Positions 1 through 22,353 of a stretch of 24,123 nucleotides of DNA are shown one piece after another. The translations under genes were made by a program, and so were the position numbers. Source of the DNA: Promethearchaeota archaeon (GTDB lineage: Archaea > Asgardarchaeota > Lokiarchaeia > Helarchaeales > RDOG01); contig RDOG01000033.1 in assembly GCA_011365055.1 (NCBI GenBank), forward strand, positions 1-24,123. Reading direction: 5' to 3'. Below the pieces are notes generated by a model. It saw nothing but the letters and a program-made list of their open reading frames with translations, was not told the origin of the DNA and did not search any database. Every line of letters starts with the position of its first letter. The first letter of the stretch is position 1.

Positions 1-3000
1 GTAAACAAGCCAATTCAAAAATTCTACATCAACTTCACCACCAGTGCCTCCACCATTATTAATGCTAATATAGATCTGATCAGATGCCTTAGCACCATAA
101 ATGTCAGTTATTGTCACCCGTAAATAATAAAAACCGTCAGATACTTGATTTGAATCAAACATTCCCATCCAAGTAGAATCAGGATCGACTAAAGTCCCAT
201 TATAAACCAAATTCATATTACTAGCATCAAGTATTTCGTATATTCCTTCAACAATAACATTCGGCCCTGATGCAGGAGCCGTGATGGGATAATTCCCACT
301 AATATAATAATATCCATAATATGAATAATAACCGTAAGGATCATATGGAATTATTGATACTTCTATAAATTCAGTATTGTTTATATATCCGATTAATTCG
401 GTTAATTTTGCACCATACATGTCTATTATTCCTGCATAGACAAGTATGTTTTGATTTGGCAAGTCATAAGAGGGCCATTGTGCTTCCCAATAATATGAAG
501 AACCATTATATGTAAGTGGAATACTAGCAAGTTGTTCGAATCCAGTATTATCAAATAACCAAATAAATGCTGCCAAGATAGGATTTGGACTCGATCCGTT
601 AATTTTGAATTCAACCATCCCAGATAATTCACCAGTTACTGGTGAAACAATTTCAATACTGGAAGAATTCACGCTAGCTAAGGTAAAGTCAAAAGTTTCA
701 TAATAAATTATTGTTGGATATTTGTTATATTGATCATTGTGACCTTCTATCGCTATTAATATTTTATATTCACCATCTGGCAGGTTATATCCAGCATATT
801 GACCTGTAAAATAAGTGCCATTATACATTAAATTAGCTCTATCAAAGGTTTCAGCAAGTGTCCAGCTTAAACTATTTGTTAAGTTTTCAAAGAAGTTCTT
901 CTCGAAGATATAAGCATTTATATAAAGATTATTAGGATCACAAATTCCCATATAATCATTTTCAAAAACGGTAATTTGGAAAACATCACCAACAGTTCCC
1001 GTGGGTTCCGATAAAGAAATATCAAAAAGAATTGCTGTAAAATTAACTTGGCAATATGTCATATCCATTCTAATGTCATAAAACATCGTGTCACTTTGTT
1101 GTTCGTGTTTAATATTTTTATAAGCCATAAAGGATTGATGACCATTATAAATACCTGTGTTGTTATTTTGTGTAATCAATGATGCAAATCCATCAGCACT
1201 AACACTAGTGATATTAGCATTTTGTATTATAGTTTCCACATAACCATATAGTGATGTAGTTTCACAATCAGTCACGTTAAATGGCATGGTTAAAACATTA
1301 GCATAATCAAGCGTATAATTATTAGTTGTTGAATTATAGTTAGATCCAAAATATAATGGCAGATAAATATTAGCGGTTATAACTTCATGACCAATTTCCG
1401 AACCCACATTTGGATCAAAGGGAAATATGTCCACAGTAGGATAATAGGCAGACCTTTCTCCGGTCTCGTTATAAAAGTCTGGAGAAGCAGGAGTTCCTTT
1501 CCAAAATTGTTGAAAATCGTATTTCCAGCATAAATATGATAAATTAGTTGTCAATCGGGAAGTATCAAATGCATTAGCAAGCCCTCCAGGAACATCGTTT
1601 TGAAATTTATTGATAAACGTGGTATAATCAATTACAGAATAATTGCATGCAAAAATAATGAACTTAAAATGCCTATTCGTAAAATTAGAAATTAATGTGA
1701 AATTTCCTTCCATTCCAAATGCTTTTTCATATTCAATTTTGATTTCAGTAGCCTTTAAATCCCATTCAGACTCATTGTATAAATTTTCTCCGGAAATGAT
1801 TAGCAAAACATCTTGATCATCAGTATTTGGAGTATTGGCTCCAAAAGCAAATTCATCTTCCCAAACATTCCGCATTATCTTGCTATCATTATCATTGGCA
1901 GCCATTAAATCAACCCTCACATTGTCAAAAGCAGATGTTATATTTATTCCAGAAGTGAGATTATATCCACCAAATTGACCAGAAATGAGGATGTTACCTT
2001 GTGGATCAACAATTGATCTAATTTTTTCAGCGTAAAACGTGTTATTAATATTAGTTTTAACCATCTTTGATCTAGTATAAGAAACATTTTGCATGTATTG
2101 ATTCAGACCCAAAACAAGTGAATCTTTGGCAGTTATTTTTATTTCAATTTCACCGTTAGGACAACATGCAATAGAATCAAACCAACCTTCGTATAATTTG
2201 GAACCATCATTATATATTAAATTGATCGTTTGGTAGGTTTCACCTGAAACTTGTCCCATTACACCAATAGAAGATGGTGAGGATATAACTGCTTGTACCG
2301 ATGAATTATCCACTCCATTAGCACTAGTTATATTAGCTGAAATAGACACGTTTCCAGCTACAAAGGATGGAAGTACACAATCGATTTGGATCATAGGAAC
2401 AGTCAAGTTGACTTCAATATCATTTGAAGAATTTAATCCATTATCTAAATCCCATACATTATAAACAATTGACATATTATTATTTTGTAAAGTTAAATTG
2501 TTATCAGGAATAAAACCTGTGTATTCCGCTATTGGCATTGGCAGATAACTCATAAGATCTGCATAATCATTTACACATTGAAACATTAAACTTGATTTAA
2601 CGTAATCTGCCATTGAATCAGGTTTTCCTATCAAGCTTGAGGGTGTCTTATTTAAAACTTGAGCTAAAGAAAATTCCTTATCCCCTGCATTATCATGCAA
2701 CCAATATGAATCGTAAAAATCTGCAACACTGATTAAAACAACATTACCCGTATCATAAACAGGGAACATATCAGATCCCATCAAATATTGATTTGGATTA
2801 AAAGTTTCAAATCCAGGTCTATTCCATACAATTTCTAAGGCAGCATCAGATTCATTTATCTTACTATCTTTTAAAACATTCATTAAATTTGAATCCTTAG
2901 CATAATTATTAAAGAAATCATCTTGAAAGGATGAAAAATTAAACGTGCCGGTATAATTCATTCCAAATATCATATAATTCATATTAGAAAACATACTTGT

Positions 3001-6000
3001 TCCGTTTTGATCTTGTATTTGTAACAATTCGATTTCAGTCCCTGTATTGAATACTCGTTCTATTTCATTTTCGATAGCCCCAGCCCTATCAGCCATTTCA
3101 GAACCAGTGTAATCAGGACCGTAAATCATCGTATTGAAAACATTTTCATAAAAAACAAAGATATGGACATCCCTGGGAGGTGCTTCGAAAAATCCACCTG
3201 TAATCAATCGATGGTCGTATTCAGTACTCTGATTATCATTATAAGCTATAAATAATATGCACTGCACACCATCCAATTCTGGAATGCTAGTGTTAACATC
3301 AACATATAATTCAGAACCAATTACCTGTGACCGTACAGATACCCCACCATCAAAAATTATAATGTTCAAAGAGTCTTCAATATAACTATTATTAATATAA
3401 AAATTAAGTGTGGAATTGGACGAGCCAACTGCCTGATAAATATCTTCTGCAAAAATTTTAACGGATTGGTTACCCCATGTTAATCCCTCCAAGTTTAATG
3501 AGCCATTCCAAAAGCCAGAACCTGCATCGTACGCCAAATCAATGACATGCTCATTTGAGATAATACCTAAATTTCTCAATCCCCTTGATTCTGCAAATGA
3601 ACATGCAAGTACATCATTAATTGTATCGTTATTTAAATCACCAGAGGCATCAAGATTAGTAATACCCATATTTCCATATCCAGAAATCTCATCATTTATG
3701 TTAGCGATATTACTTTGTTGAATGAATGATCCATCAGAATAAATCATTGCATGGATATAGCCACCATTATAGCCAAATAATAAGTCGGGAACACCGTCCA
3801 TGTTTAAATCTCCTGATCCCATGGTAGAAGGAGTATTATCATCAGATGGAATCACATTATTCCAATAGGTGAAATTAGCAATCCCATCATTTATCCATAA
3901 ATCAGCACTTGAACCATGTTGAATAGCAATATCGGTGTAAGAATCGTTATTGAAATCACCTACGGCAAGAGGAGCTTGTGATCCATCACCATAGGGAGAT
4001 CCGAATACGTCTGAATCATAATTGAAAGTAGTTCCATTATTTAAAAACAAGAATACATTTTGAGATGTATCAGAGCAAATTATATCGTCATAATCATTTT
4101 GATCAAAATCAGCACTTACAACATAATATGGAGTGTTGGGTAAACCTGTAATATTAGCCCAAAAGGAGAAGCTTCCTGGTTCTGAAATATTATTTAGCCA
4201 AAATTCTAAATAATGATTACTTGACATGTCAGAATAAAGAACTACAAAGTCAGGTAAAGTATCATTATTAAAATCACCAACAGCAATATCATTTGGAGTA
4301 ATTAGACTATTTATAATAATTGTTGTTGGATCCTCAAAATCACCCGTTCCATCATTTAAATAAAGTGAAATTTCTCTATACATCCCCATCTGGTCTCTTG
4401 CACCTAATACATCATCATATCCATCATTATTAATGTCAACGATTATGCCACTAACAAGCATTAGATTATTAGTCGTAAAATCATGAAATTGATATAAATC
4501 AGAAAATTTAGTTGGTTGCTCTTCTTTCCCGAATTGATTCGTTACTGTCGCCCATGCGTGTTCTATCGTATAGGGATTTGAAATATTTACAGCAAAATCA
4601 AGAGATCCATCAGCCTTTAAGCTAACAACTGTATTATTTAGTGGATCTTCGAAATCAAATAACATATTATCGGAATTTGTAATGTTAATATCATCAACAA
4701 GCAATCCCATTCCAAGGACTCCACCACAAGCTAATAGAGGTTCACCATAACTTACAAGATCACTATAAATTCCTTTTACAACAAGGACATATTTACCGTT
4801 TGGTATAATATATGAAGTCAAATTAGCAGTCCAATTGTTAGGGGAGGTGTTTTCAAAATAAATATCTAAAATTGGATTTGGATTGTCTTTAGAGTTAGGG
4901 ATATAAGAGTGGAAATCATTATAAGAGTAAATTTCTCCATAGACGCTTATTAAATCTGTATTATTATTAATATTTAATTCAATATATTCTAAATCACCTA
5001 TTTCATCAGTTATTGGCTGTGTACGTTCAATATAAACCTGTGGAGCTGTAAAATTAAGTTCGATTTCATTTAATGCAGGCTGACCTGTCAGATTATAATA
5101 GACCTCGACATCGTTGATGAAAGATATATAAGATTCACTCATAACATCAGGCGAGGAGTTGTAATAATAAGAATTTTGAATGTATGTATAAATTGAAGAA
5201 GCAATATTAGTAGCATATTCAGTTTCATTACACGACTTAATTGAACTCACACCTGAAATAGTTCCTACATTTAAAGTTCTATTATCGGTTGAATTATAAG
5301 GAGTATAATATTCAGGTAATTTTTGCATTACTCTTATTTGGTTTTCAAAATACGGATCAAAAGTAATAGAAGATATATATTCTTCAAATAAATCAATATT
5401 TGCGTGAAAAACTTCTAAAATACCATCTCTCGAGTACATATTATCATTTAATACTAAGGAATTTAATCCATTAGGAAGGGAACTATTAAGAAAATTTAAA
5501 AAATAAGTATAATTCCTTTCAGTACTTAAATTGGCAGTAAAAATCAAATGAATAATATCTAGTTCCAACCCATTATTCCAATCACTCACCATATGGCTGT
5601 AATTTAGTTCAGAACCAGTGGAATTTAAATTAAATATTTGATTCCAATCTTCTGCGATCATTTCTCCATAAGAAAGTAGTTCTGATTTTAATAATTGAAG
5701 CGGTGCTGGAAATCCACAAGTTAAAACAAGCTCCCCTATAGAATCGTTATTTACTGACGGATTATTTTTATAATTTTCATGAATTGATGAACTTTCATTA
5801 AATATAATAAAGGAAATATACATTGCCCGATCATAGGCAGAAAGGGAATCGTTTAGTTCAGCTATAAAGGGTTGATCCGATTGAAAAGTAGCAGAAATCG
5901 TTAAATTGCCATTAGGATCAACATAATAATTAACTTGCTCCACATAATAGGATCTACCACCAGGAGTTGATGACCGGTTCAATCCAAAAATTGAAGATAA

Positions 6001-6147
6001 AATGGGAGCAATTAATCCCGTGGCAAATATCATTCCGACTAAAATACTTAATACAAACGTGGAAAGAATAAATAAAGATAAAATTTTAAGCCGGGTTTTA
6101 CGGACAATATAAAATCGGCTTGTTTTGTTATGCTGATCGTATAACAT
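1..6147 (-). CDS. Giant membrane-anchored surface protein with FG-GAP propeller and triplicated unknown domain (partial, C-terminus outside window)
   Basis: I read every codon from ATG at 6147 to base 1 and found no stop, so at least 2049 residues are encoded and the gene continues left. A ribosome site GAGGAA (6155-6160) sits 7 nt before the ATG. Residues about 20-50 are a basic stretch followed by one hydrophobic segment, a signal anchor, so the rest should be extracellular; Asn-X-Ser/Thr sites are abundant. Order seen: anchor; unknown module 1 (about 70-369); Ig-like region; six Asp-rich FG-GAP/VCBS loops (571-845); Ig-like region; module 2 (about 1000-1190); Ig-like regions; module 3 (about 1430-1690); then several Ig-like beta modules, the last two each carrying a D-x-YGAK motif. 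FG-GAP propellers are known from integrins and microbial adhesins, so adhesion or cell-surface assembly is likely, but this is inference. The full C-terminus, and any sorting tail, is not visible. Confidence 0.9.
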   Translation of the reverse strand, partial: MLYDQHNKTSRFYIVRKTRLKILSLFILSTFVLSILVGMIFATGLIAPILSSIFGLNRSSTPGGRSYYVEQVNYYVDPNGNLTISATFQSDQPFIAELNDSLSAYDRAMYISFIIFNESSSIHENYKNNPSVNNDSIGELVLTCGFPAPLQLLKSELLSYGEMIAEDWNQIFNLNSTGSELNYSHMVSDWNNGLELDIIHLIFTANLSTERNYTYFLNFLNSSLPNGLNSLVLNDNMYSRDGILEVFHANIDLFEEYISSITFDPYFENQIRVMQKLPEYYTPYNSTDNRTLNVGTISGVSSIKSCNETEYATNIASSIYTYIQNSYYYNSSPDVMSESYISFINDVEVYYNLTGQPALNEIELNFTAPQVYIERTQPITDEIGDLEYIELNINNNTDLISVYGEIYSYNDFHSYIPNSKDNPNPILDIYFENTSPNNWTANLTSYIIPNGKYVLVVKGIYSDLVSYGEPLLACGGVLGMGLLVDDINITNSDNMLFDFEDPLNNTVVSLKADGSLDFAVNISNPYTIEHAWATVTNQFGKEEQPTKFSDLYQFHDFTTNNLMLVSGIIVDINNDGYDDVLGARDQMGMYREISLYLNDGTGDFEDPTTIIINSLITPNDIAVGDFNNDTLPDFVVLYSDMSSNHYLEFWLNNISEPGSFSFWANITGLPNTPYYVVSADFDQNDYDDIICSDTSQNVFLFLNNGTTFNYDSDVFGSPYGDGSQAPLAVGDFNNDSYTDIAIQHGSSADLWINDGIANFTYWNNVIPSDDNTPSTMGSGDLNMDGVPDLLFGYNGGYIHAMIYSDGSFIQQSNIANINDEISGYGNMGITNLDASGDLNNDTINDVLACSFAESRGLRNLGIISNEHVIDLAYDAGSGFWNGSLNLEGLTWGNQSVKIFAEDIYQAVGSSNSTLNFYINNSYIEDSLNIIIFDGGVSVRSQVIGSELYVDVNTSIPELDGVQCILFIAYNDNQSTEYDHRLITGGFFEAPPRDVHIFVFYENVFNTMIYGPDYTGSEMADRAGAIENEIERVFNTGTEIELLQIQDQNGTSMFSNMNYMIFGMNYTGTFNFSSFQDDFFNNYAKDSNLMNVLKDSKINESDAALEIVWNRPGFETFNPNQYLMGSDMFPVYDTGNVVLISVADFYDSYWLHDNAGDKEFSLAQVLNKTPSSLIGKPDSMADYVKSSLMFQCVNDYADLMSYLPMPIAEYTGFIPDNNLTLQNNNMSIVYNVWDLDNGLNSSNDIEVNLTVPMIQIDCVLPSFVAGNVSISANITSANGVDNSSVQAVISSPSSIGVMGQVSGETYQTINLIYNDGSKLYEGWFDSIACCPNGEIEIKITAKDSLVLGLNQYMQNVSYTRSKMVKTNINNTFYAEKIRSIVDPQGNILISGQFGGYNLTSGINITSAFDNVRVDLMAANDNDSKIMRNVWEDEFAFGANTPNTDDQDVLLIISGENLYNESEWDLKATEIKIEYEKAFGMEGNFTLISNFTNRHFKFIIFACNYSVIDYTTFINKFQNDVPGGLANAFDTSRLTTNLSYLCWKYDFQQFWKGTPASPDFYNETGERSAYYPTVDIFPFDPNVGSEIGHEVITANIYLPLYFGSNYNSTTNNYTLDYANVLTMPFNVTDCETTSLYGYVETIIQNANITSVSADGFASLITQNNNTGIYNGHQSFMAYKNIKHEQQSDTMFYDIRMDMTYCQVNFTAILFDISLSEPTGTVGDVFQITVFENDYMGICDPNNLYINAYIFEKNFFENLTNSLSWTLAETFDRANLMYNGTYFTGQYAGYNLPDGEYKILIAIEGHNDQYNKYPTIIYYETFDFTLASVNSSSIEIVSPVTGELSGMVEFKINGSSPNPILAAFIWLFDNTGFEQLASIPLTYNGSSYYWEAQWPSYDLPNQNILVYAGIIDMYGAKLTELIGYINNTEFIEVSIIPYDPYGYYSYYGYYYISGNYPITAPASGPNVIVEGIYEILDASNMNLVYNGTLVDPDSTWMGMFDSNQVSDGFYYLRVTITDIYGAKASDQIYISINNGGGTGGEVDVEFLNWLVY
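1561..1680 (-). repeat. Core of unknown module, copy 3 of 3
   Basis: Residues about 1490-1529. The segment contains IIFACNYS followed by YTTFINKF and VPGGLAN, matching IFTANLS / YTYFLNFL / LPNGLN of copy 1. Copies 1 and 3 also share a later FDP ... YNST ... C-x-[ET]-T/E ... IQN series. Confidence 0.6.
2881..3000 (-). repeat. Core of unknown module, copy 2 of 3
   Basis: Residues about 1050-1089. The segment contains MIFGMNYT followed by an aromatic stretch FSSFQDDFFNN, matching copies 1 and 3 in position and pattern. The copy is the most diverged of the three and is followed by a VNLTVP strand comparable to NFTAP after copy 1. Confidence 0.5.
3613..4437 (-). repeat. Six FG-GAP/VCBS calcium-loop repeats inside the giant surface protein
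   Basis: Six loops of the form D-x-[ND]-x-[DN]-x-x-x-D occur at residues 571-579, 625-633, 680-688, 731-739, 780-788 and 837-845, spaced 49 to 57 residues apart. Examples are DINNDGYDD, GDFNNDTLPD and GDLNMDGVPD. This spacing and motif are the hallmark of FG-GAP/VCBS blades, which bind calcium and build a beta-propeller. A seventh blade without acidic residues could exist but I could not identify one. Confidence 0.85.
5461..5580 (-). repeat. Core of unknown module, copy 1 of 3
   Basis: Residues about 190-229 of the giant protein. The segment reads hydrophobic strand, IFTANLS, short spacer, then an aromatic helix-like stretch ending LPNGLN. It aligns by eye with the segments at 2881-3000 and 1561-1680. 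The full module probably spans about residues 70-369 and ends in an NFTAP-type strand. Confidence 0.6.
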
Positions 6148-6207
6148 ATAACGATTCCTCAAAAAGAATTTTTAGGTACCAGAGTGTAGTATGATCCTAA
6201 TACCATA

Positions 6208-8999: not shown

Positions 9000-9570
9000 A
9001 ATTAAATGATAATGGAGATCTAATATTTTTTAAAACTTTAATTCTTTTAAAAAGGAAAAATACACAAATAATAATTAAAAGAGCTGAAATAATGCTTACA
9101 AACTCAAATCCGGGAATTAATAGGATTGGATATTCATATCCCCCAACTAAAGAAATATTTAGATCAAATTCACATCCAAGAATGTAAATTGTATTAATTT
9201 TTATTAAATAATATCCGGTTAAATTACATTTAATACTACAATTTTGATAATCATTACCAAAAGTGTCCGAACTATCAGATAAATTATTAATGCTGCTATA
9301 TAAAAATAAACTTAAGTTGTATTTTGATGAATTAAAACTTATATTCACTGAAAAATTCGCATCCAAAAGACAATAAACTTTGTAATAAATTTCCGATTTT
9401 CCAGCAGGAATTTCTTCAATATAATTGCCAGGGGTTCTAGTCATCGCATTGGCAAAACTAGAACCATCTTCTGCTGTATATCCTTCATTAATGGGCGTAA
9501 TTAAAAGGATTGAAAATAAAAAAACAAATGAACACAATAAAAAAATCTTTTTTTGAAATGGTTTAGGCAT
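8998..9570 (-). CDS. Small secreted surface protein, PPC-like beta domain with IPGFE-type sorting tail
   Basis: The 190-residue product has a classic signal peptide (basic start, hydrophobic residues 9-25) and a beta-rich ectodomain (about 35-145). The pattern AGKSEIYYKVY ... LSLFLYSS ... LTGYYLIKI ... FDLNIS resembles pre-peptidase C-terminal (PPC) domains. Three ectodomain cysteines could form a disulfide. Residues 152-156 are IPGFE, followed by a hydrophobic helix (157-174) and basic residues from 175. This tripartite tail matches the layout of the Loki-CTERM/PGF-CTERM class of archaeal sorting signals. A GGAAAG ribosome site lies just before the ATG. The gene is convergent with the multipass membrane protein gene, 15 nt away. 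The domain assignment is tentative; the secreted and tail-anchored topology is clear. Confidence 0.8.
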   Translation of the reverse strand: MPKPFQKKIFLLCSFVFLFSILLITPINEGYTAEDGSSFANAMTRTPGNYIEEIPAGKSEIYYKVYCLLDANFSVNISFNSSKYNLSLFLYSSINNLSDSSDTFGNDYQNCSIKCNLTGYYLIKINTIYILGCEFDLNISLVGGYEYPILLIPGFEFVSIISALLIIICVFFLFKRIKVLKNIRSPLSFN

Positions 9571-11108: not shown

Positions 11109-13157
11109 ATGCTTTTGATCAAAAAATACACCAAAATTGAATTATCAAAATTACCTTTCATGGATACAAGTTTAGAATTAGAAAAGAGAGTTGAAGATAT
11201 ATTAAGTAGATTAACTTTAGATGAAAAAATTAAACTAGGCGGCGGTCGTTTGGACATGTCATCTACTAAAAAAATCAAACGACTTGGTATAAAACCATTT
11301 AAAATGACAGATGGACCTCATGGAGTTGGAGGTATCGGACTTTTAGCAATGTTATTTAAAAAAAATTCTTATTTTCCAGTCTCGGCTTGTAGAGCGGCGA
11401 CTTGGAATCCAGAGTTGTTACATAGATATGGAATAGCTATTGCAGAAGAAATAAGGGCAGTGGGGTTTCATATGATCCTTTCACCAGGCATAAATATCGT
11501 CAGATCCCCACTTTGTGGAAGGAATTTTGAATATTTCACGGAAGATCCATACCTTGTTAAAAAATTGGCCGTTGCAGAGGTTAAAGGATATCAAAGCTTA
11601 GGGATTGCGGCGTGTGTCAAACATTTCGCAGTAAATAATCAAGATACAAATCGGTTTAGAGTAAATGCTATCGTGAGTGAACGAGCACTTGAAGAAATTT
11701 ATTTGCCAGCTTTTGAAGCTACGGTTCGTGAAGGTGATGCTTGGTCATTTATGGCTTGTTATAATAAAGTAAATAATTTACATGGATGTGAAAACACTTT
11801 CTTACTTAAGAAAAAATTGATGGATGAATGGGGTTTTCGAGGCTTTGTTGTATCTGATTGGTTTGCTTCTAAAAATCCTCAGAATACAGAAAGTTGTATT
11901 AATGCAGGATTAAGCCTTGAAATGCCTTGGTCTATAAAATATAAGAAATGGAAGGTTAAACGAGCATTAAAAGAGGGATTCATTACAGAAGAAAAATTAG
12001 ATGATAATGTTAGAAGATTATTACGCGTGATGTTCTTAGTTGGTATGTTTGATGATATAAGCTCGGTACCAAAAGGTAATAGAAATACAGAAGAGCATCA
12101 ATTATTAGCTCGTGAAATAGCTGAAGAAGGAATCGTGCTTCTTAAAAATGAAAATGATATTTTACCATTAAATATTGAAAAAATTAAAAAAATAGCTGTA
12201 TTAGGCCCAAATGCGAAGAAAAAGCATTCGTTTGGCGGTGGAAGTTCATCAGTTAGAGCGTTTTATGAGATAACTCCACTTCAAGGTATTGAGGAAAAAT
12301 GTGGTGAGAAAGTTGAAATCGTTAAAGATCCTGCACTTGCGGATGTTGTGATTTTCTTTGGTGGATTAAAACACGCTGCAGGTCAAGATGCAGAAGGTGC
12401 AGATAAAAAATCTTTAGAGCTTCCAAAGAAACAAGTCGATTTAATTAATAAAACTGTAAAAGCAAATTCTAATACAATTGTCGTTTTAATTTCTGGGAGC
12501 CCAATAGCCATGGAAGGTTGGTTAGAAAAAATTCCAGCATTAATTGAAGCATGGTATCCAGGAATGGAAGGTGGACATGCTATTGCTAACGTGATTTTTG
12601 GAGAAATAAATCCATCAGGAAAACTCCCAGTAACTTTTCCTAAAAAATTATCAGATTCACCTGCAAATACATCTATAAGAACGTTTCCGGGAAGAGAAAA
12701 TGTTTATTATGATGAGGGAATCTTCGTTGGATATAGGCATTATGATACAAAACAAATTGAGCCACTTTTTCCGTTCGGATTTGGTCTCTCCTATACTTCT
12801 TTTGAATATCAAAATCTCAAAATTTCTCCAGATTCGATAAAAACTAATGATACCTTAAAAGTTTCCGTTGATATAACTAATTCTGGAAACCGAGAAGGTG
12901 CGGAGATCGTTCAATTATATGTACAGGATATTGAAGCAAGCGTAGAACGACCTCTAAAGGAATTAAAAGGTTTCAAAAAAATAAAATTAAACCCAGAAGA
13001 AAAGAAAACTGTAGAATTCGAACTTTTAAAAGAAGATCTTTCCTTTTATGATGAGAAAGAGCATTCATGGAGAGCAGAAAAAGGAAAATTTAAGTTACTC
13101 GTTGGTAGTTCTTCAAGAGACATCAGATTAGAAGGAGAATTTAATTATATCGATTAA
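11109..13157 (+). CDS. Glycoside hydrolase family 3 (beta-glucosidase/beta-xylosidase type), cytosolic
   Basis: The 682-residue product carries the GH3 N-terminal barrel with TDGPHG (67-72), GRNFEYFTEDP (from 138), KHF (171-173) and VVSDW with the nucleophile Asp250. The second domain has LLKNENDILPL, a GQDAEGADKKSLELP segment that probably supplies the acid/base Glu, and PSGKLPVTFP. An FnIII-like domain (about the last 115 residues) ends the protein. There is no signal peptide, so it acts inside the cell on imported glycosides; exact linkage and sugar are unknown. The ribosome site GAGGT (11104-11108) touches the ATG directly, so TTG at 11115, 6 nt downstream of it, may be the true start. 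The gene converges on the EutA-like gene with a 4-nt overlap of the stop codons. Confidence 0.95.
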   Translation: MLLIKKYTKIELSKLPFMDTSLELEKRVEDILSRLTLDEKIKLGGGRLDMSSTKKIKRLGIKPFKMTDGPHGVGGIGLLAMLFKKNSYFPVSACRAATWNPELLHRYGIAIAEEIRAVGFHMILSPGINIVRSPLCGRNFEYFTEDPYLVKKLAVAEVKGYQSLGIAACVKHFAVNNQDTNRFRVNAIVSERALEEIYLPAFEATVREGDAWSFMACYNKVNNLHGCENTFLLKKKLMDEWGFRGFVVSDWFASKNPQNTESCINAGLSLEMPWSIKYKKWKVKRALKEGFITEEKLDDNVRRLLRVMFLVGMFDDISSVPKGNRNTEEHQLLAREIAEEGIVLLKNENDILPLNIEKIKKIAVLGPNAKKKHSFGGGSSSVRAFYEITPLQGIEEKCGEKVEIVKDPALADVVIFFGGLKHAAGQDAEGADKKSLELPKKQVDLINKTVKANSNTIVVLISGSPIAMEGWLEKIPALIEAWYPGMEGGHAIANVIFGEINPSGKLPVTFPKKLSDSPANTSIRTFPGRENVYYDEGIFVGYRHYDTKQIEPLFPFGFGLSYTSFEYQNLKISPDSIKTNDTLKVSVDITNSGNREGAEIVQLYVQDIEASVERPLKELKGFKKIKLNPEEKKTVEFELLKEDLSFYDEKEHSWRAEKGKFKLLVGSSSRDIRLEGEFNYID

Positions 13158-15280
13158 GAATCTTTCTTTTCATTATTAAATACCAAACTTTTAACGGTTA
13201 CCGGAAATGCTTCAGCTGATTCAAGTTGAGCACCGAAAGCTCGACCGGATTTGAGTGGTGCACCGATATCAATCCAAACACCTGCTTCTAAAATTAATTC
13301 GTCAAGACACATTAAGTTTTGAATGGATGTTTCGCGATTAATTGCTAATCCCATAAGTTTAGCTACATCGTCATAGAACAGTAATATGATAGGTTTTTTA
13401 TTAGCGATCGAATGAGGGAGGGATTTTTCAATAGCTTTGGCAAATCCTGGCATCCATCTTGTTGAACGATGAATGGGATCCTTGAAATAAAGAGCGATTA
13501 TATCTTCCCCTTCTTGGAAATCAAAATTTTTATAAGCCTTTTCAATTTCTTCTTTAACATAATCTGAATTCACTTCGTCTTTTATGAGATCACAAACAAC
13601 TTCTTTTTTTAAGGGAACGGGAATGACGGGTATATTATTAAGGGGAAAATCAATGCCTTTATCAAAATAACACGTAGAACCTGATATTGAAAGCGAAAAA
13701 GCACCCGCACCGATAACTGTTGCTCTGATTTTATTTTCAGGTTCGACTAGTTGTAGTTTGAGACCATCTAAAATGTTTTTAATTTCTTCTGCAAGATATT
13801 TTCCAATATCATTAAAGTTCTTAGGTGTTTGATTAGTATAAATTATCTCCCCTATTCCACCTGAGATCGATATTTCATCGAATGGGATTGATTGATCTAA
13901 ATTGTCCGTCATCATTAACATTTTCGCAATCGGACTTGTTGCCGAACCCTTCATTACTTCTATTAATGCATTTGCATATTCATGGGCGATAGTTCTTACA
14001 TCTTCCTCGGGGATTGTATCTCCTAACTGATAGTTCATATTCAACTCCTTCATTACTCTATAACTAGGTTCATCTATTCTCCAGATTTTGAAATTTTTGT
14101 CGATACCTAACAAACGGCCGCCTACATTAATACAAGCTGTACTCACGACATCTCCATTTGAGCATATAGCCATGTTGCTTGTACCACCACCGACATCTAC
14201 GTTTAATATCGTACAATGTTTCATACGGGATCGTTCGACGATGCCGCTTCCCATGGCACCGAGAAGAGATTCAAAGTTTGGACCTGCTGCAGCACTAACA
14301 AATTTTCCCGACTCTGAAGAAATACGAACAACTATTTCTGCGGCATTTTCTTTTTTAGCAGTCTCTCCAGTTACTATAACTGCACCAGTATCAACCATTT
14401 CAGGCAAGATTCCCGCTTTTTTATATTCATCTTCACAAAATTTTATGACAGCTTCGATATCAATATTATAACGATCAATCAAAGGAGTGAAAATAATATC
14501 ACTCTCATATATAATTTCTCGATTTATAGGCAAGAAGCGATTTGTCATATTGAAAAAACTTGCTTCTCTTTTATAAGTTAGACGGGAAAAGATTAAATGA
14601 GAAGTCGATGATCCCACATCTATGCCAACACTTAAAATTTTAAGATATTCAACATTTCCATCTGAGGAATTTGTATGAGACAATAACATTTCAGCAGGAT
14701 ATATTTTAATTTCTTCAAACGGTTCATTCTCTTTTTCCTCTTCGATCTTAACAATTTTTATTACCATTTCTTTATCATGATGCTTAGGTAATTCTATTTT
14801 TTCAGAATCATCCATTAATTTTGCCTTTATTTCTTGCGGAATTTCAAAGTTCTGCTCGCAAACCGTACAGTAATAGCGAAGATCCATCGATTTACTGCTC
14901 CCAGGTATTATTGGACCTTTTTGTTTTTGCGTAAATTTTTTATCATTGAGTTGTCTCCGAACTCTATCTAATATAATATTAAAATTAAACACCCAAGTAT
15001 CACAAATAGAATCATATAATTTACCAGGTTCTAATATTGTATTTAATGCAGGTTTTAAGTTAGTGAGATATCTATAAAATTCTGTAAGTTTGTTATCATC
15101 TTCCCTTGTCTGTTCTTTGAGCAGTTTTTCATATGTTTGATTAAACTTTTTCATTAAATCTTCTGAATCCTTACGATCATTCGTCTCTAACAAGTATTTA
15201 AGGTAATAAATTAAAGTTTGTTTAAGCGATTCGAGTTGGAAATTATAATTGGCGATTCGTTCTTCAACGCTGTTTTTCAT
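13154..15280 (-). CDS. eutA: EutA-like reactivating ATPase with long N-terminal extension
   Basis: Residues from about 215 to 700 match the ethanolamine ammonia-lyase reactivase EutA: SVGIDVGSSTSHLIFSR (phosphate 1, 217-233), VDVGGGTSN (phosphate 2, 361-369), ISGGIGEI (adenosine motif, about 472-479), all of the actin/Hsp70-fold ATPase type. Bacterial EutA ejects damaged B12 from EutBC. Here no eutB or eutC lies in the window. Residues 1-215 are extra: helical, charged, with one CTVC pair (138, 141) that could bind metal if dimerised. The total of 708 residues is well above the usual EutA length of roughly 470. The gene appears leaderless, with TTTAAATT about 26 nt before ATG, and is divergent from a small winged-helix-like gene. 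It may serve another B12 enzyme or a different client altogether. Confidence 0.9.
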   Translation of the reverse strand: MKNSVEERIANYNFQLESLKQTLIYYLKYLLETNDRKDSEDLMKKFNQTYEKLLKEQTREDDNKLTEFYRYLTNLKPALNTILEPGKLYDSICDTWVFNFNIILDRVRRQLNDKKFTQKQKGPIIPGSSKSMDLRYYCTVCEQNFEIPQEIKAKLMDDSEKIELPKHHDKEMVIKIVKIEEEKENEPFEEIKIYPAEMLLSHTNSSDGNVEYLKILSVGIDVGSSTSHLIFSRLTYKREASFFNMTNRFLPINREIIYESDIIFTPLIDRYNIDIEAVIKFCEDEYKKAGILPEMVDTGAVIVTGETAKKENAAEIVVRISSESGKFVSAAAGPNFESLLGAMGSGIVERSRMKHCTILNVDVGGGTSNMAICSNGDVVSTACINVGGRLLGIDKNFKIWRIDEPSYRVMKELNMNYQLGDTIPEEDVRTIAHEYANALIEVMKGSATSPIAKMLMMTDNLDQSIPFDEISISGGIGEIIYTNQTPKNFNDIGKYLAEEIKNILDGLKLQLVEPENKIRATVIGAGAFSLSISGSTCYFDKGIDFPLNNIPVIPVPLKKEVVCDLIKDEVNSDYVKEEIEKAYKNFDFQEGEDIIALYFKDPIHRSTRWMPGFAKAIEKSLPHSIANKKPIILLFYDDVAKLMGLAINRETSIQNLMCLDELILEAGVWIDIGAPLKSGRAFGAQLESAEAFPVTVKSLVFNNEKKDS

Positions 15281-16017: not shown

Positions 16018-16587
16018 TCACGAATATCGTTCTTCTTTCCAAGGATCTGCAGTATTACTGTAACCACCACGTTCCCAATAACCTAATTCATCTTTTTCAA
16101 TGAATTTTAATTTTCTTACCCACTTAGCACTTTTATAAAAATATTTTTTTGGAACTAAGCCCCTTACTGGACCACCATGTTTATTTTCCAATTCTTTTCC
16201 TGCATACTTAAAAGCCAGCATCGAATTCTCATCCGTCAAAACTTCTATAGGCAAGCTAGTCGTAAAGCGTCCTCCAAGATCTTCGCATTCAAAAACAACG
16301 AATTTTGCTTTGTCAGTGGGCTTTACTATTTTGAAAATATCTGTAAATAACACGCCTTCCCATTCAGTATCAAATAGACTCCAGGTTGTTACGCAATGAA
16401 TATCAGTATTAATTTTAGTTCGTGGGAGATTAATGAATTCTTCATAATTAAACGTTTTAGGGGCATCCACTTCCCCATAAATTTCCAAGGACCAATTATT
16501 TTTAGTTAAATGTCTAGGAATATCAGCTGCTTGGAGGACAGGGAACCTATCAACTTTTTTTTGACCAGGGGGTAGTCTTTCTTTCAT
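16018..16587 (-). CDS. Sulfite-oxidase-like molybdopterin oxidoreductase, cytosolic
   Basis: The 189-residue product is a single Oxidored_molyb domain. It has DIHCVTTWS with the molybdenum-ligand Cys65, the region GGPVRGLVPKKYFYKSAKWV that lines the cofactor site, and the end motif GYWERGGYSNTADPW. It is the compact stand-alone form found widely in bacteria and archaea; there is no twin-arginine signal, heme domain or dimerisation domain, so it should be cytosolic, unlike MsrP/YedY. The natural substrate of such proteins is generally unknown. An AGGGTG ribosome site lies about 6 nt before the ATG. It is followed by the ferredoxin gene after 26 nt, suggesting a two-gene redox operon. Confidence 0.95.
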   Translation of the reverse strand: MKERLPPGQKKVDRFPVLQAADIPRHLTKNNWSLEIYGEVDAPKTFNYEEFINLPRTKINTDIHCVTTWSLFDTEWEGVLFTDIFKIVKPTDKAKFVVFECEDLGGRFTTSLPIEVLTDENSMLAFKYAGKELENKHGGPVRGLVPKKYFYKSAKWVRKLKFIEKDELGYWERGGYSNTADPWKEERYS

Positions 16588-17684: not shown

Positions 17685-18347
17685 ATGAAGAAAAGAGCGT
17701 ATCCCGCAAAATATATCGATGATTTGGGTGAAGTATCAGTTCAAGTTTGGAATGATGGAAAATGTTTGGAACTGAAAATAAGAGATGTGATCTTTTCAGG
17801 ATCAGATTTTGATAGTTTGGAACCTAAAGGAGATCCATCCCCAGAATTACTAAGCAAATTCACATTATATTTAGGTAAAGATTTGTGCAATTGTAATATT
17901 TTATGTGATATTCCTATTGACCTTATTCTAGGCTCTGAGAAGATCTCTAGCACGCTCTCAATGAAATTAATTTTAGGAAAACCTATTCCTCCACGAGGTA
18001 TAGATAAGGAGGTATTAATTTTAGAGTTAAAATATTTAGACAAAAAAATAGTCTCATCTGGTGAAAGTGGATGGTTTGAGGATGAATTAATTGATATTCA
18101 AAGGAAGTTACCAGCCGATGCATATATTTTATGCTGTTTCAATTGTTTATTCTCGGATTATTCACCTTATGGGCATGGACTTTTTGGTAGCATGATGTGT
18201 TTTCGTGATAATAAAGAAAATTATCTTGCAGTCAAGTCCAAGAATGACTTTTTCGCCATCGAAGATACGATGACTGATTATGTACAAGAAATTCATATAT
18301 GTCCAGAATTTCAAAAAAGAATTCCTGGAACAGGGTATCGTGGATGA
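17685..18347 (+). CDS. Cysteine-rich soluble protein resembling DUF6304
   Basis: The 220-residue product has no membrane segment. Features visible are VIFSGSDFDSLEP (36-47), CNCNILCDIPIDL (68-80), then CCFNCLFSDYSPYGHGLFG (150-168), MMCFRDNKE (171-179) and a closing HICPEFQKR with GTGYRG. From memory this resembles the bacterial family DUF6304, but I could not check it. C151, C154, C172 and C206 could form a metal site. The family is of unknown function and some bacterial homologues may sit beside toxins; no toxin gene is visible here. A transfer from bacteria is possible. Confidence 0.6.
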   Translation: MKKRAYPAKYIDDLGEVSVQVWNDGKCLELKIRDVIFSGSDFDSLEPKGDPSPELLSKFTLYLGKDLCNCNILCDIPIDLILGSEKISSTLSMKLILGKPIPPRGIDKEVLILELKYLDKKIVSSGESGWFEDELIDIQRKLPADAYILCCFNCLFSDYSPYGHGLFGSMMCFRDNKENYLAVKSKNDFFAIEDTMTDYVQEIHICPEFQKRIPGTGYRG

Positions 18348-20670: not shown

Positions 20671-22353
20671 TTAGGGAAGAATCTTGTATCTCTTATCGAT
20701 TATTTTTCTAATTTCTTTGCTTTTATCTTGTGCTAAAATCAATATTATTTTGACTGGTAAATCTTCTCTTAATGAAATTGTTTTACGAACTTCTTCACAC
20801 GAATCGTGAGCAAGAACAAATTTAATGCGATCAGGGATTCCTTTCCGGCAGGCAATAATCCTTCTAATCTCCTTATTTTTAAATAATGCAAGTTTAGAGA
20901 TTACAGGTTCTGATAAATTTCTTCTATACACGTTTATTTTTCTAATATAATCATCTTTATCTTTTGCTAAATCTAAAATAACGTAGTCTGGCAGATCCTC
21001 TCGGTATGCAATGATTTCTCGAACCATTTTACTTTTATCCTTGGCTAATTCTTGGATAATTTTATTGGATAATATCTCCCTATAAGCTATAATTCTTCTT
21101 ACGGATTCATCTGGATCCTTTGTAAGCAATAGAAGCATATCTTCTGTTAAATCATATCTTGATGCTATTTTTCTCCTCACGCTTACATTTTTATCCTTAG
21201 CTAATGGTAAAATGATATCTGGTGGCAATCTTTCCTTATTGACTATGATTTTTCGAATCTCAGGATCATTATCTGTTGCAAGTTTTCTTATAATTGCGTT
21301 ATTTAGACCACTTCTCATTGCTATAATTTTTCTGACTTCGTAACTTTCATCAACAGCAAGTTTTGATAACAATTCTGTTGAAATATTTTCACGATAAGCT
21401 ATTGTTTTTCTGGTTTCTACATCATCATCTTCTGAGAGTTCATCTATTAGTATATCTCTTAAAGTTGAAAGTTCTTCGACTATGGGCGTTTTTAGATCAT
21501 TTAGGCGTTTTTTCTCAAATATATCTAGAAGAATTTTATCTTCTGCAGCTTTAATGTCGTCTGTTTTTTGATATTTATAGGGAATATTTTGCATGATTGT
21601 AGTATTTACATCTTCTAACTTTTTTAATATTTTATTCCTTAATTCTTCTTCCTCAACTGATAAGAGTTCCTTACGTAATTCATCAAATAAATCTTTTCTA
21701 ACTAGTTCATATTTCAAGTATTCTGTCTTTTTTAAAACGTCAATATAAGCATTTTTTACCTCATCATCATTAGGTCTTAAAAAAAAATCTTTATATTTTT
21801 CTGGATCATCGACATAAAAGTTTCTAAGTGTAAAAGCTATTATATCTTTGGAAGCATAAGGTGCAATTTGAATTAATCCTCTCATTATACGAGATCTCAA
21901 ATCTTTATCAAATTCGAAATTTGCATCTATCTTATTTATGCTCTCATTCATTGATTCAATTAGTCCATAAATTAATCCATTTGCTATGAGATCTTCAATA
22001 AAACATTTTAATGCATAATAATGTTCTTCAGGTTTTAATAACGATAAAAACTTCAATTGCTTATCTAAGGATAATTCAACGAAACAATCTTCAAATTCTT
22101 CATTAAATGAAATTTGACCTATTGGAGCTTTTATGAAATCTATATAAACCTCTTTATCCTCCCGTTTCAAATGAATTCCTTTTTCAACTATTTCATCATT
22201 GACTATTTTTGTAATTGCATTGATTTTTAATTCTAAATCCATTAAATTTTCATCAATATAAGGCTCATATTGCTTTTCATATAAAATTTCTTTGCAATCA
22301 TCATCCAAACATTTTTTTTCTTCATTTGAAATGAATAATGTTTTACCTTCCAA
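20671..22353 (-). CDS. Tandem 26-residue alpha-repeat protein (LRV/HEAT-like)
   Basis: The 560-residue product has an acidic, helical N-terminal half (1-310) of unknown family. From residue 315 come nine repeats of exactly 26 residues plus a final partial one: RKIIAYREDLPxxIIxxLAKDKxxEV is the approximate consensus. The pattern resembles leucine-rich-variant (LRV) repeats, whose canonical length is 24, and is related to HEAT repeats. Such solenoids usually bind proteins or nucleic acid; the many Arg/Lys at fixed repeat positions suggest a basic face. The start is TTG, chosen because GGAGGAG (22364-22370) lies about 10 nt before it and no better start is in frame. A cysteine pair (Cys15, Cys20) near the N-terminus lacks the rest of a cluster-binding motif. 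Downstream is the metallophosphoesterase gene. Confidence 0.85.
   Translation of the reverse strand: MEGKTLFISNEEKKCLDDDCKEILYEKQYEPYIDENLMDLELKINAITKIVNDEIVEKGIHLKREDKEVYIDFIKAPIGQISFNEEFEDCFVELSLDKQLKFLSLLKPEEHYYALKCFIEDLIANGLIYGLIESMNESINKIDANFEFDKDLRSRIMRGLIQIAPYASKDIIAFTLRNFYVDDPEKYKDFFLRPNDDEVKNAYIDVLKKTEYLKYELVRKDLFDELRKELLSVEEEELRNKILKKLEDVNTTIMQNIPYKYQKTDDIKAAEDKILLDIFEKKRLNDLKTPIVEELSTLRDILIDELSEDDDVETRKTIAYRENISTELLSKLAVDESYEVRKIIAMRSGLNNAIIRKLATDNDPEIRKIIVNKERLPPDIILPLAKDKNVSVRRKIASRYDLTEDMLLLLTKDPDESVRRIIAYREILSNKIIQELAKDKSKMVREIIAYREDLPDYVILDLAKDKDDYIRKINVYRRNLSEPVISKLALFKNKEIRRIIACRKGIPDRIKFVLAHDSCEEVRKTISLREDLPVKIILILAQDKSKEIRKIIDKRYKILP
20674..21411 (-). repeat. Nine and a half tandem 78-nt coding repeats (26 residues each)
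   Basis: Repeat starts fall at residues 315, 341, 367, 393, 419, 445, 471, 497, 523 and 549 with no indel between copies. Conserved positions are R1, the [IV][IV]A trio at 3-5, R7, L/I10, L/I14-15, L18, A19, D21 and V/I26. Nucleotide identity between copies is low, so the array is old or under selection at protein level only. Confidence 0.85.

Follow-up and report, generated by a model that had tools for sequence, protein, structure and literature searches.

PIG-T (Gpi16 in yeast) is a non-catalytic subunit of the glycosylphosphatidylinositol (GPI) transamidase, which equips proteins with lipid anchors. According to the passages on it in PMC12786357, which name its two lobes the N-lobe and the C-lobe, GPI anchoring depends on it and yeast cannot live without it. 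The corresponding passages of PMC9098846 describe lobe 1 as ten twisted strands arranged in a cage, with loops and short helices that touch GPAA1, PIGK and PIGS; lobe 2, a beta-sandwich, contacts GPAA1 and PIGU. The window analyzed here is a stretch of 24,123 nucleotides from a Promethearchaeota archaeon of the order Helarchaeales, a member of the group closest to eukaryotes. It contains the start of a gene for a giant surface protein (P0001), in which we found three copies of one domain of about 310-340 residues. The predicted fold of this domain best matches the N-terminal lobe of PIG-T/Gpi16.

Among the open-licence papers listed for Asgard or other archaea and GPI transamidase, judged by title and the start of the abstract, one was directly relevant (PMC12872458; 2026, Nature). 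It gives GPI-anchor synthesis and the transamidase complex an Asgard origin at the level of the pathway, and the word PIGT does not occur in its main text. The consulted portions of the PIG-T/Gpi16 literature name no prokaryotic protein with the PIG-T fold. Within these searches no open-licence paper dealt with the domain, and among the matches listed for Helarchaeota, surface protein and FG-GAP there was nothing on the giant protein.

Three copies of one domain

The three segments are copies of one domain, and the domain forms a family. In the strictest test, we used a profile built from foreign copies only (four single-copy proteins and the four copies of P0020, a protein described below), with no window copy and no ortholog of one. 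This profile scored 50.7 bits on the first copy (D1), 62.1 on the second (D2), 53.7 on the third (D3) and 57.4 on the D3 of a relative in another genome, G002; among 820 decoys, made up of 500 shuffled versions of P0001, 300 of P0020 and 20 reversed proteins, the highest score was 9.4. The profile of the single-copy family alone gave 26.8, 11.3 and 20.4 bits for D1, D2 and D3 (best decoy, 7.5), and that of the P0020 copies alone gave 20.2, 41.3 and 47.7 bits (best decoy, 10.0). With leave-one-copy-out profiles, the omitted window copy scored 65.7-69.5 bits and the best decoys 8.0-12.4.

Direct comparisons of the copies gave a range of signals. Local alignment with two matrices and 400 shuffles gave z of 5.1 and 7.6 for D1-D2, 3.8 and 6.5 for D1-D3, and 2.8 and 3.3 for D2-D3, the real scores being reached by 0, 0 and 3 shuffles with one matrix and by 0, 0 and 1 with the other. 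Plain BLASTP was weak, with best E of 4.0 (D1-D2), 0.001 over 23 residues (D1-D3) and 1.9 (D2-D3). Comparison of the ortholog sets by hhalign gave P of 0.0004, 0.0084 and 0.014 for the three pairs in the same order; the probabilities were low (35, 4.8 and 3.1%), and the profiles are shallow.

The original prediction, made from the sequence alone, had placed three copies of one extracellular domain in this order. It located them correctly and drew them too short (limits in Table 1). The core stretches that it cited (residues 195-234, 1055-1094 and 1495-1534) align column by column, with LIFTANLS, MIFGMNYT and IIFACNYS each followed by an aromatic helix. The FDP and Cys landmarks proposed for D1 and D3 did not hold up: the FDP and Cys of D1 are missing in both D1 orthologs and the Cys of D3 in the sole D3 ortholog, so these landmarks look like chance. 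The IQN landmark survives in most copies merely as hydrophobic-x-N, and the closing strand reads NFT or NFS in 11 of 15 copies (counted by hand). Over the 15 copies there is one invariant Gly, and four further columns (E, F, N and P) are 90% conserved. The identity of copies to D2 is 12-22%, its ortholog excepted.

The surroundings of the copies and the absence of a named domain were also as predicted. Immunoglobulin (Ig)-like stretches, read by eye, separate D1, an FG-GAP propeller, D2 and D3; Pfam matched the propeller with FG-GAP_3 (E 3.3e-20, five stretches) and FG-GAP (E 7.7e-10, four stretches). P0001 resembles FG-GAP (integrin-alpha-like) proteins in its propeller and differs from them in the repeated domain outside it, and none of 10 FG-GAP proteins (P0004-P0013) was hit by the domain profile at E ≤ 10. 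Over the three copies, no Pfam or NCBIfam family exceeded its cut-off. In eight copies, no Ig or PKD family was found, and the only weak hits, in one copy each, were Fn3 (E 0.17) and a phage tape-measure model (E 0.02). The latter, Tape_meas_lam_C, matched D2 at E 0.15 in P0001, below the cut-off, and was judged a chance match to a helix.

Predicted fold and the comparison with PIG-T

We consider it probable that the domain is a non-catalytic, beta-rich unit with the fold of the PIG-T/Gpi16 N-lobe, and that its copies serve as rigid binding scaffolds in an adhesion or receptor head. AlphaFold models of D2 (predicted template modelling score, pTM, 0.67) and D3 (pTM 0.75) had the N-terminal part of PIG-T as their best match among solved structures, a known relative that the original prediction missed. 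Both models align over PIG-T residues 28 to 345-348, and with both models the human and yeast subunits outscored the best other chain by factors of 1.7 to 2.3, over 74-80% of the domain. Oligosaccharyltransferase structures were matched too, with a chain that we take to be Ost1/ribophorin I (the tables name the complex only). Their scores were within the range of common arrangements, and the ribophorin I family (PF04597) matched none of eight copies. Sequence searches of the PDB gave a best E of 1.2 with P0001 and 1.3 with the eight-copy profile, and a viral structure library gave no match at E ≤ 0.001.

Several results weigh against this interpretation. The mean predicted local distance difference test scores (pLDDT) of the two models were 68 and 62, and Foldseek TM-scores stayed below 0.5 (by query, 0.45-0.47; by target, 0.31-0.33). 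Among the 50 Foldseek matches listed for D2 there was one human PIG-T chain only and no yeast Gpi16, and among the 50 listed for D3 there was likewise no yeast Gpi16. The two models are not independent, because all six sequences used for D3 are also in the D2 alignment. The Gpi16 family PF04113 was not hit in P0001 at E ≤ 10, nor in the eight copies alone, and it was over its cut-off in none of 227 Asgard genomes; its matches there were all below the cut-off, 7 of 9 contained stops, and 1 of 14 control genomes matched too. Comparison of the 15-copy alignment with 14 PIG-T sequences by hhalign gave P 0.77 and a score of 11.6 (decoy mean, 13.9), which 82 of 100 decoys reached locally and 80 of 100 globally, and a block search gave z of 1.5 for human, 0.9 for frog, -0.2 for gar, 1.9 for shark and -1.3 for yeast.

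The PIG-T set in these comparisons had little breadth, with 13 sequences from vertebrates and a single yeast fragment, because it was drawn from the best 120 of 2,941 hits, of which the organism-named ones were vertebrate. The score of PIG-T against two remote proteins, against the seven remote Asgard proteins described below and against all 22 sequences was reached by 46, 4 and 36 of 60 decoys, respectively. Two apparent likenesses to human PIG-T were set aside. An ungapped one, seen by eye in the first hairpin and second helix of the domain, failed the decoy and block tests. The other was a score of 8.2 bits with the 15-copy hidden Markov model (HMM), for which the best of 2,109 background open reading frames (ORFs) reached 4.2; four vertebrate orthologs scored -3.4 to 0.5. 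Because the sequence tests failed, we claim a match of predicted fold and not membership in the PIG-T family.

The archaeal domain and PIG-T are both extracytoplasmic, the models match the N-terminal lobe, and remote Asgard relatives have the first third of the domain near the N-terminus and a single terminal hydrophobic span (by eye). They differ in that the archaeal domain occurs in one to four copies in proteins of about 1,800 to over 5,500 amino acids, and in that each copy in the giant proteins is succeeded by Ig-like stretches. In PIG-T the N-lobe is followed by the beta-sandwich of the C-lobe and a single span. In addition, the archaeal domain has no detectable sequence similarity to PIG-T, and there is no evidence of a GPI-transamidase complex.

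Relatives, partners and neighboring genes

The domain is carried by other Asgard surface proteins. The gene for P0001 runs off the start of the window, which holds the N-terminal part only. A genome-contig scan with P0001 detected no relative; a partial protein labelled Helarchaeota (P0003) has 51% identity to it over 1284 aligned columns. A neighboring gene (16018-16587) was used as bait solely for reaching two Helarchaeota genomes. The relative in G002 is split over two contigs, with the first 547 amino acids on one and an open frame of 5550 amino acids (P0014) on the other; we took the two contig ends, on separate contigs, to be one gene. The start of P0014 corresponds to about residue 1259 of P0001; the frame includes D3, followed by a stalk of Ig/PKD-type repeats (K319L-like PKD in Pfam, E 1.3e-26), a hydrophobic span and a basic tail of 153 amino acids with four Cys/His pairs. 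The tail (residues 5398-5550; L084 16193-16651) has one CxxH and three CxxC; zinc-finger Pfam models matched it at E 0.05-0.1 only, and we call it zinc-finger-like from the Cys/His spacing. A second architecture (P0015, 2306 amino acids, locus L091 in G004) combines a single copy (residues 68-363) with Ig-like domains and a span, and its tail gives a zinc-ribbon match below the cut-off (E 0.0027).

A search with residues 60-400 of P0015 found five proteins at E ≤ 0.001 among 1660 candidates (P0016-P0020). P0016 is 99% identical to P0015 and was excluded from the 15-copy alignment (A8), P0017 (partial) and P0018 are labelled Helarchaeota, and P0019 is labelled Lokiarchaeota. P0020 (Helarchaeota, 3916 amino acids) has four copies, at residues 63-386, 624-967, 1064-1376 and 1483-1794. 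Besides the window protein, the domain is carried by five other Helarchaeota or Lokiarchaeota proteins, one of them with four copies.

A8 matched 6 of 227 genomes of the phylum at E ≤ 0.001 (G002, G004, G019, G032, G033 and G165) and 17 at E ≤ 0.5; G002 and G004 belong to the same order, of which four genomes were searched. In two other archaeal phyla, 0 of 310 and 0 of 302 genomes matched at E ≤ 0.001 (best, 0.00135 and 0.0404), and three and two genomes matched at E ≤ 0.05. The non-Asgard value of 0.00135 is close to that of the weakest Asgard hit (9.5e-4), and single hits near E 0.001 therefore prove little. Two weak hits (G046 and G040) were unrelated proteins by eye, and those in G021, G186, G220, G148, G147, G211, G036 and G003 were not counted.

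Seven remote Asgard proteins (G019, G026, G028, G032, G033, G165 and G171) were related to the family as a group. They were picked because the A8 profile hit them, and four (G019, G028, G032 and G033) are mutually close; G027 was left out because its N-terminal part repeats G028. Against A8 by hhalign they gave P 2.8e-7, a probability of 93% and a score of 57.1 (maximum in 60 block permutations, 24.0); the alignment covers the domain's first third (model positions 1-115 of 317). Singly, they scored 7.2-16.4 bits with the HMM (maximum in 1,050 shuffles, 9.4), and G171 (9.2) and G028 (7.2) were not above decoys on their own. The complete ones end in one hydrophobic span (by eye). The flanks of two, at L099 and L100, contain regulator-like, radical-SAM-like and helicase-like genes by eye, and that of L127 a helicase-like gene.

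A protein of 399 amino acids from G282 (L145 787-1986, minus strand), in the non-Asgard phylum that includes a Nitrososphaerales archaeon, is a lead. It matched at E 0.0185 in the 310-genome search and scored 12.6 bits with the 15-copy HMM (best of 1,000 of its own shuffles, 10.6; best of the background ORFs as above); the seven-protein HMM did not find it (-2.4 bits). By eye it has a signal segment, a possible domain copy and one C-terminal span. If real, this would be a PIG-T-like layout at its smallest.

Partners of the transamidase were judged by gene presence only. C13 peptidase was over the cut-off in 76 of 227 Asgard genomes, including G001, G003 and G004 of the order of G002, and in 1 of 14 control genomes; there was no match in G002, which holds the giant gene, or in G026, G165 or G171. 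GAA1 was over the cut-off in 1 of 227. The C13 peptidase of G004 has 404 amino acids, with a secreted C13 domain and a C-terminal span by eye. By eye, we saw no domain copy alongside the three C13 loci that we read.

Divergent from the giant gene in the window is a gene for a SpoIIM-like protein (Pfam SpoIIM, E 2.3e-5; 24.8 bits, cut-off 26.9). It has 45% identity to the product of L085 5764-8388 (minus strand) in G002, upstream of the gene start at 9334 and likewise divergent from the giant gene. The keeping of the pair in both genomes points to a common function of the two proteins, possibly export or assembly. Elsewhere in the window, an oxidoreductase has 78% and 71% identity to two records titled Candidatus Helarchaeota; this and the likeness of P0001 to P0003 mark the window as Helarchaeota by kinship. 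An EutA-type protein (13154-15280, minus strand; Pfam E 9.9e-130 at residues 214-702) has an N-terminal extension of about 210 residues without a Pfam match, the C-terminal half of a protein at 20671-22353 (minus strand) consists of or includes repeats of LRV/HEAT type (Pfam LRV, E 4.4e-10), and a DUF6304 protein (E 3.3e-34), of a family whose function is not known, lies at 17685-18347 (plus strand).

Table 1. Coordinates of features in the window and of related genes at other loci.
Feature	Position	Strand	Basis
Giant surface protein gene, P0001 (ORF 6162-1), 2054 codons in window	1..6162	-	ORF and translation
N-terminal hydrophobic segment behind basic stretch (signal peptide or signal anchor), about residues 25-52	6007..6090	-	Translation read by eye
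Domain copy D1, residues 71-378	5029..5952	-	Foreign-copy profile
FG-GAP beta-propeller, about residues 571-860, limits by eye	3583..4452	-	Pfam FG-GAP_3 and FG-GAP
Domain copy D2, residues 926-1260	2383..3387	-	Foreign-copy profile; AlphaFold model
Domain copy D3, residues 1375-1715	1018..2040	-	Foreign-copy profile; AlphaFold model
SpoIIM-like membrane protein, 870 amino acids	6370..8982	+	Pfam SpoIIM below cut-off
Remote Asgard protein, first third of domain near N-terminus, about 900-1,025 amino acids	L099 1523-4591	-	
Same layout	L100 1908-4979	-	
Same layout	L127 1454-4525	+	
Same layout	L129 779-3856	-	
Same layout	L132 1223-3886	-	
Same layout, partial	L126 1494-2813	+	
Same layout, partial	L128 986-3820	+	
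Helarchaeales C13/caspase-like peptidase, secreted with C-terminal membrane span (PIG-K topology)	L148 652-1866	-	By eye
Same	L149 3-1637	-	By eye

Possible role and descent of the domain

Judged by its architecture, the whole protein most likely serves as an adhesion or receptor head. A signal segment is followed by D1, an Ig-like stretch, the propeller, an Ig-like stretch, D2, an Ig-like stretch and D3 and, judging from the relative in G002, by a long stalk of Ig-like repeats, then a C-terminal membrane span and, inside the cell, a short tail whose Cys/His pairs are zinc-finger-like. By analogy with the PIG-T lobe in GPI transamidase, the D domains would be rigid protein-binding scaffolds, the simplest function given that the archaeal copies have no conserved catalytic set, and with the propeller they may make a multivalent head held out by the stalk. 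Because of their Cys/His pairs, the inner tails may serve in docking or signaling within the cell.

An enzyme, such as a glycan- or peptide-processing unit, is very improbable. The size of the domain and its repeated use are all that speak for the enzymatic unit that the original prediction had allowed; the conserved residues of the 15 copies make up no recognizable catalytic set, and the nearest fold is that of a non-catalytic subunit. Less improbable, but still unlikely, is a purely structural role of the copies as repeats in an S-layer-like or stalk protein, without a specific ligand. The low identity between copies, the many sequons in P0001 and the largely Ig-like makeup of the relative's protein are in line with such repeats, but the domain lies towards the N-terminal end, is single in some proteins and reaches four copies in another, and the stalk is built of other repeats.

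The match to PIG-T could also be convergence, a large twisted antiparallel sheet with short flanking helices having arisen independently of any kinship with GPI transamidase. We give this somewhat less than an even chance; the lead of the human and yeast subunits over every other chain, with both models and over most of the domain, argues against it. Convergence concerns descent, and the binding scaffold with the PIG-T N-lobe fold that we favor could stand with it. Common descent of the domain and PIG-T is plausible, at about even odds. A fuller scenario is doubtful. In it, the domain would share ancestry with the PIG-T/Gpi16 N-lobe as its archaeal counterpart and would already have been spread among Asgard, and perhaps other, archaea at the N-terminus of surface proteins with a single span, docking membrane-anchored C13 caspase-like peptidases such as that of G004; eukaryotes would have made the pair into GPI transamidase, and Helarchaeota would have multiplied the domain in giant adhesins.

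The domain family provides a name for a region of the giant Asgard surface proteins on which Pfam and NCBIfam are silent. With an archaeal domain family predicted to have the PIG-T fold, ideas on where the transamidase scaffold came from would become testable.

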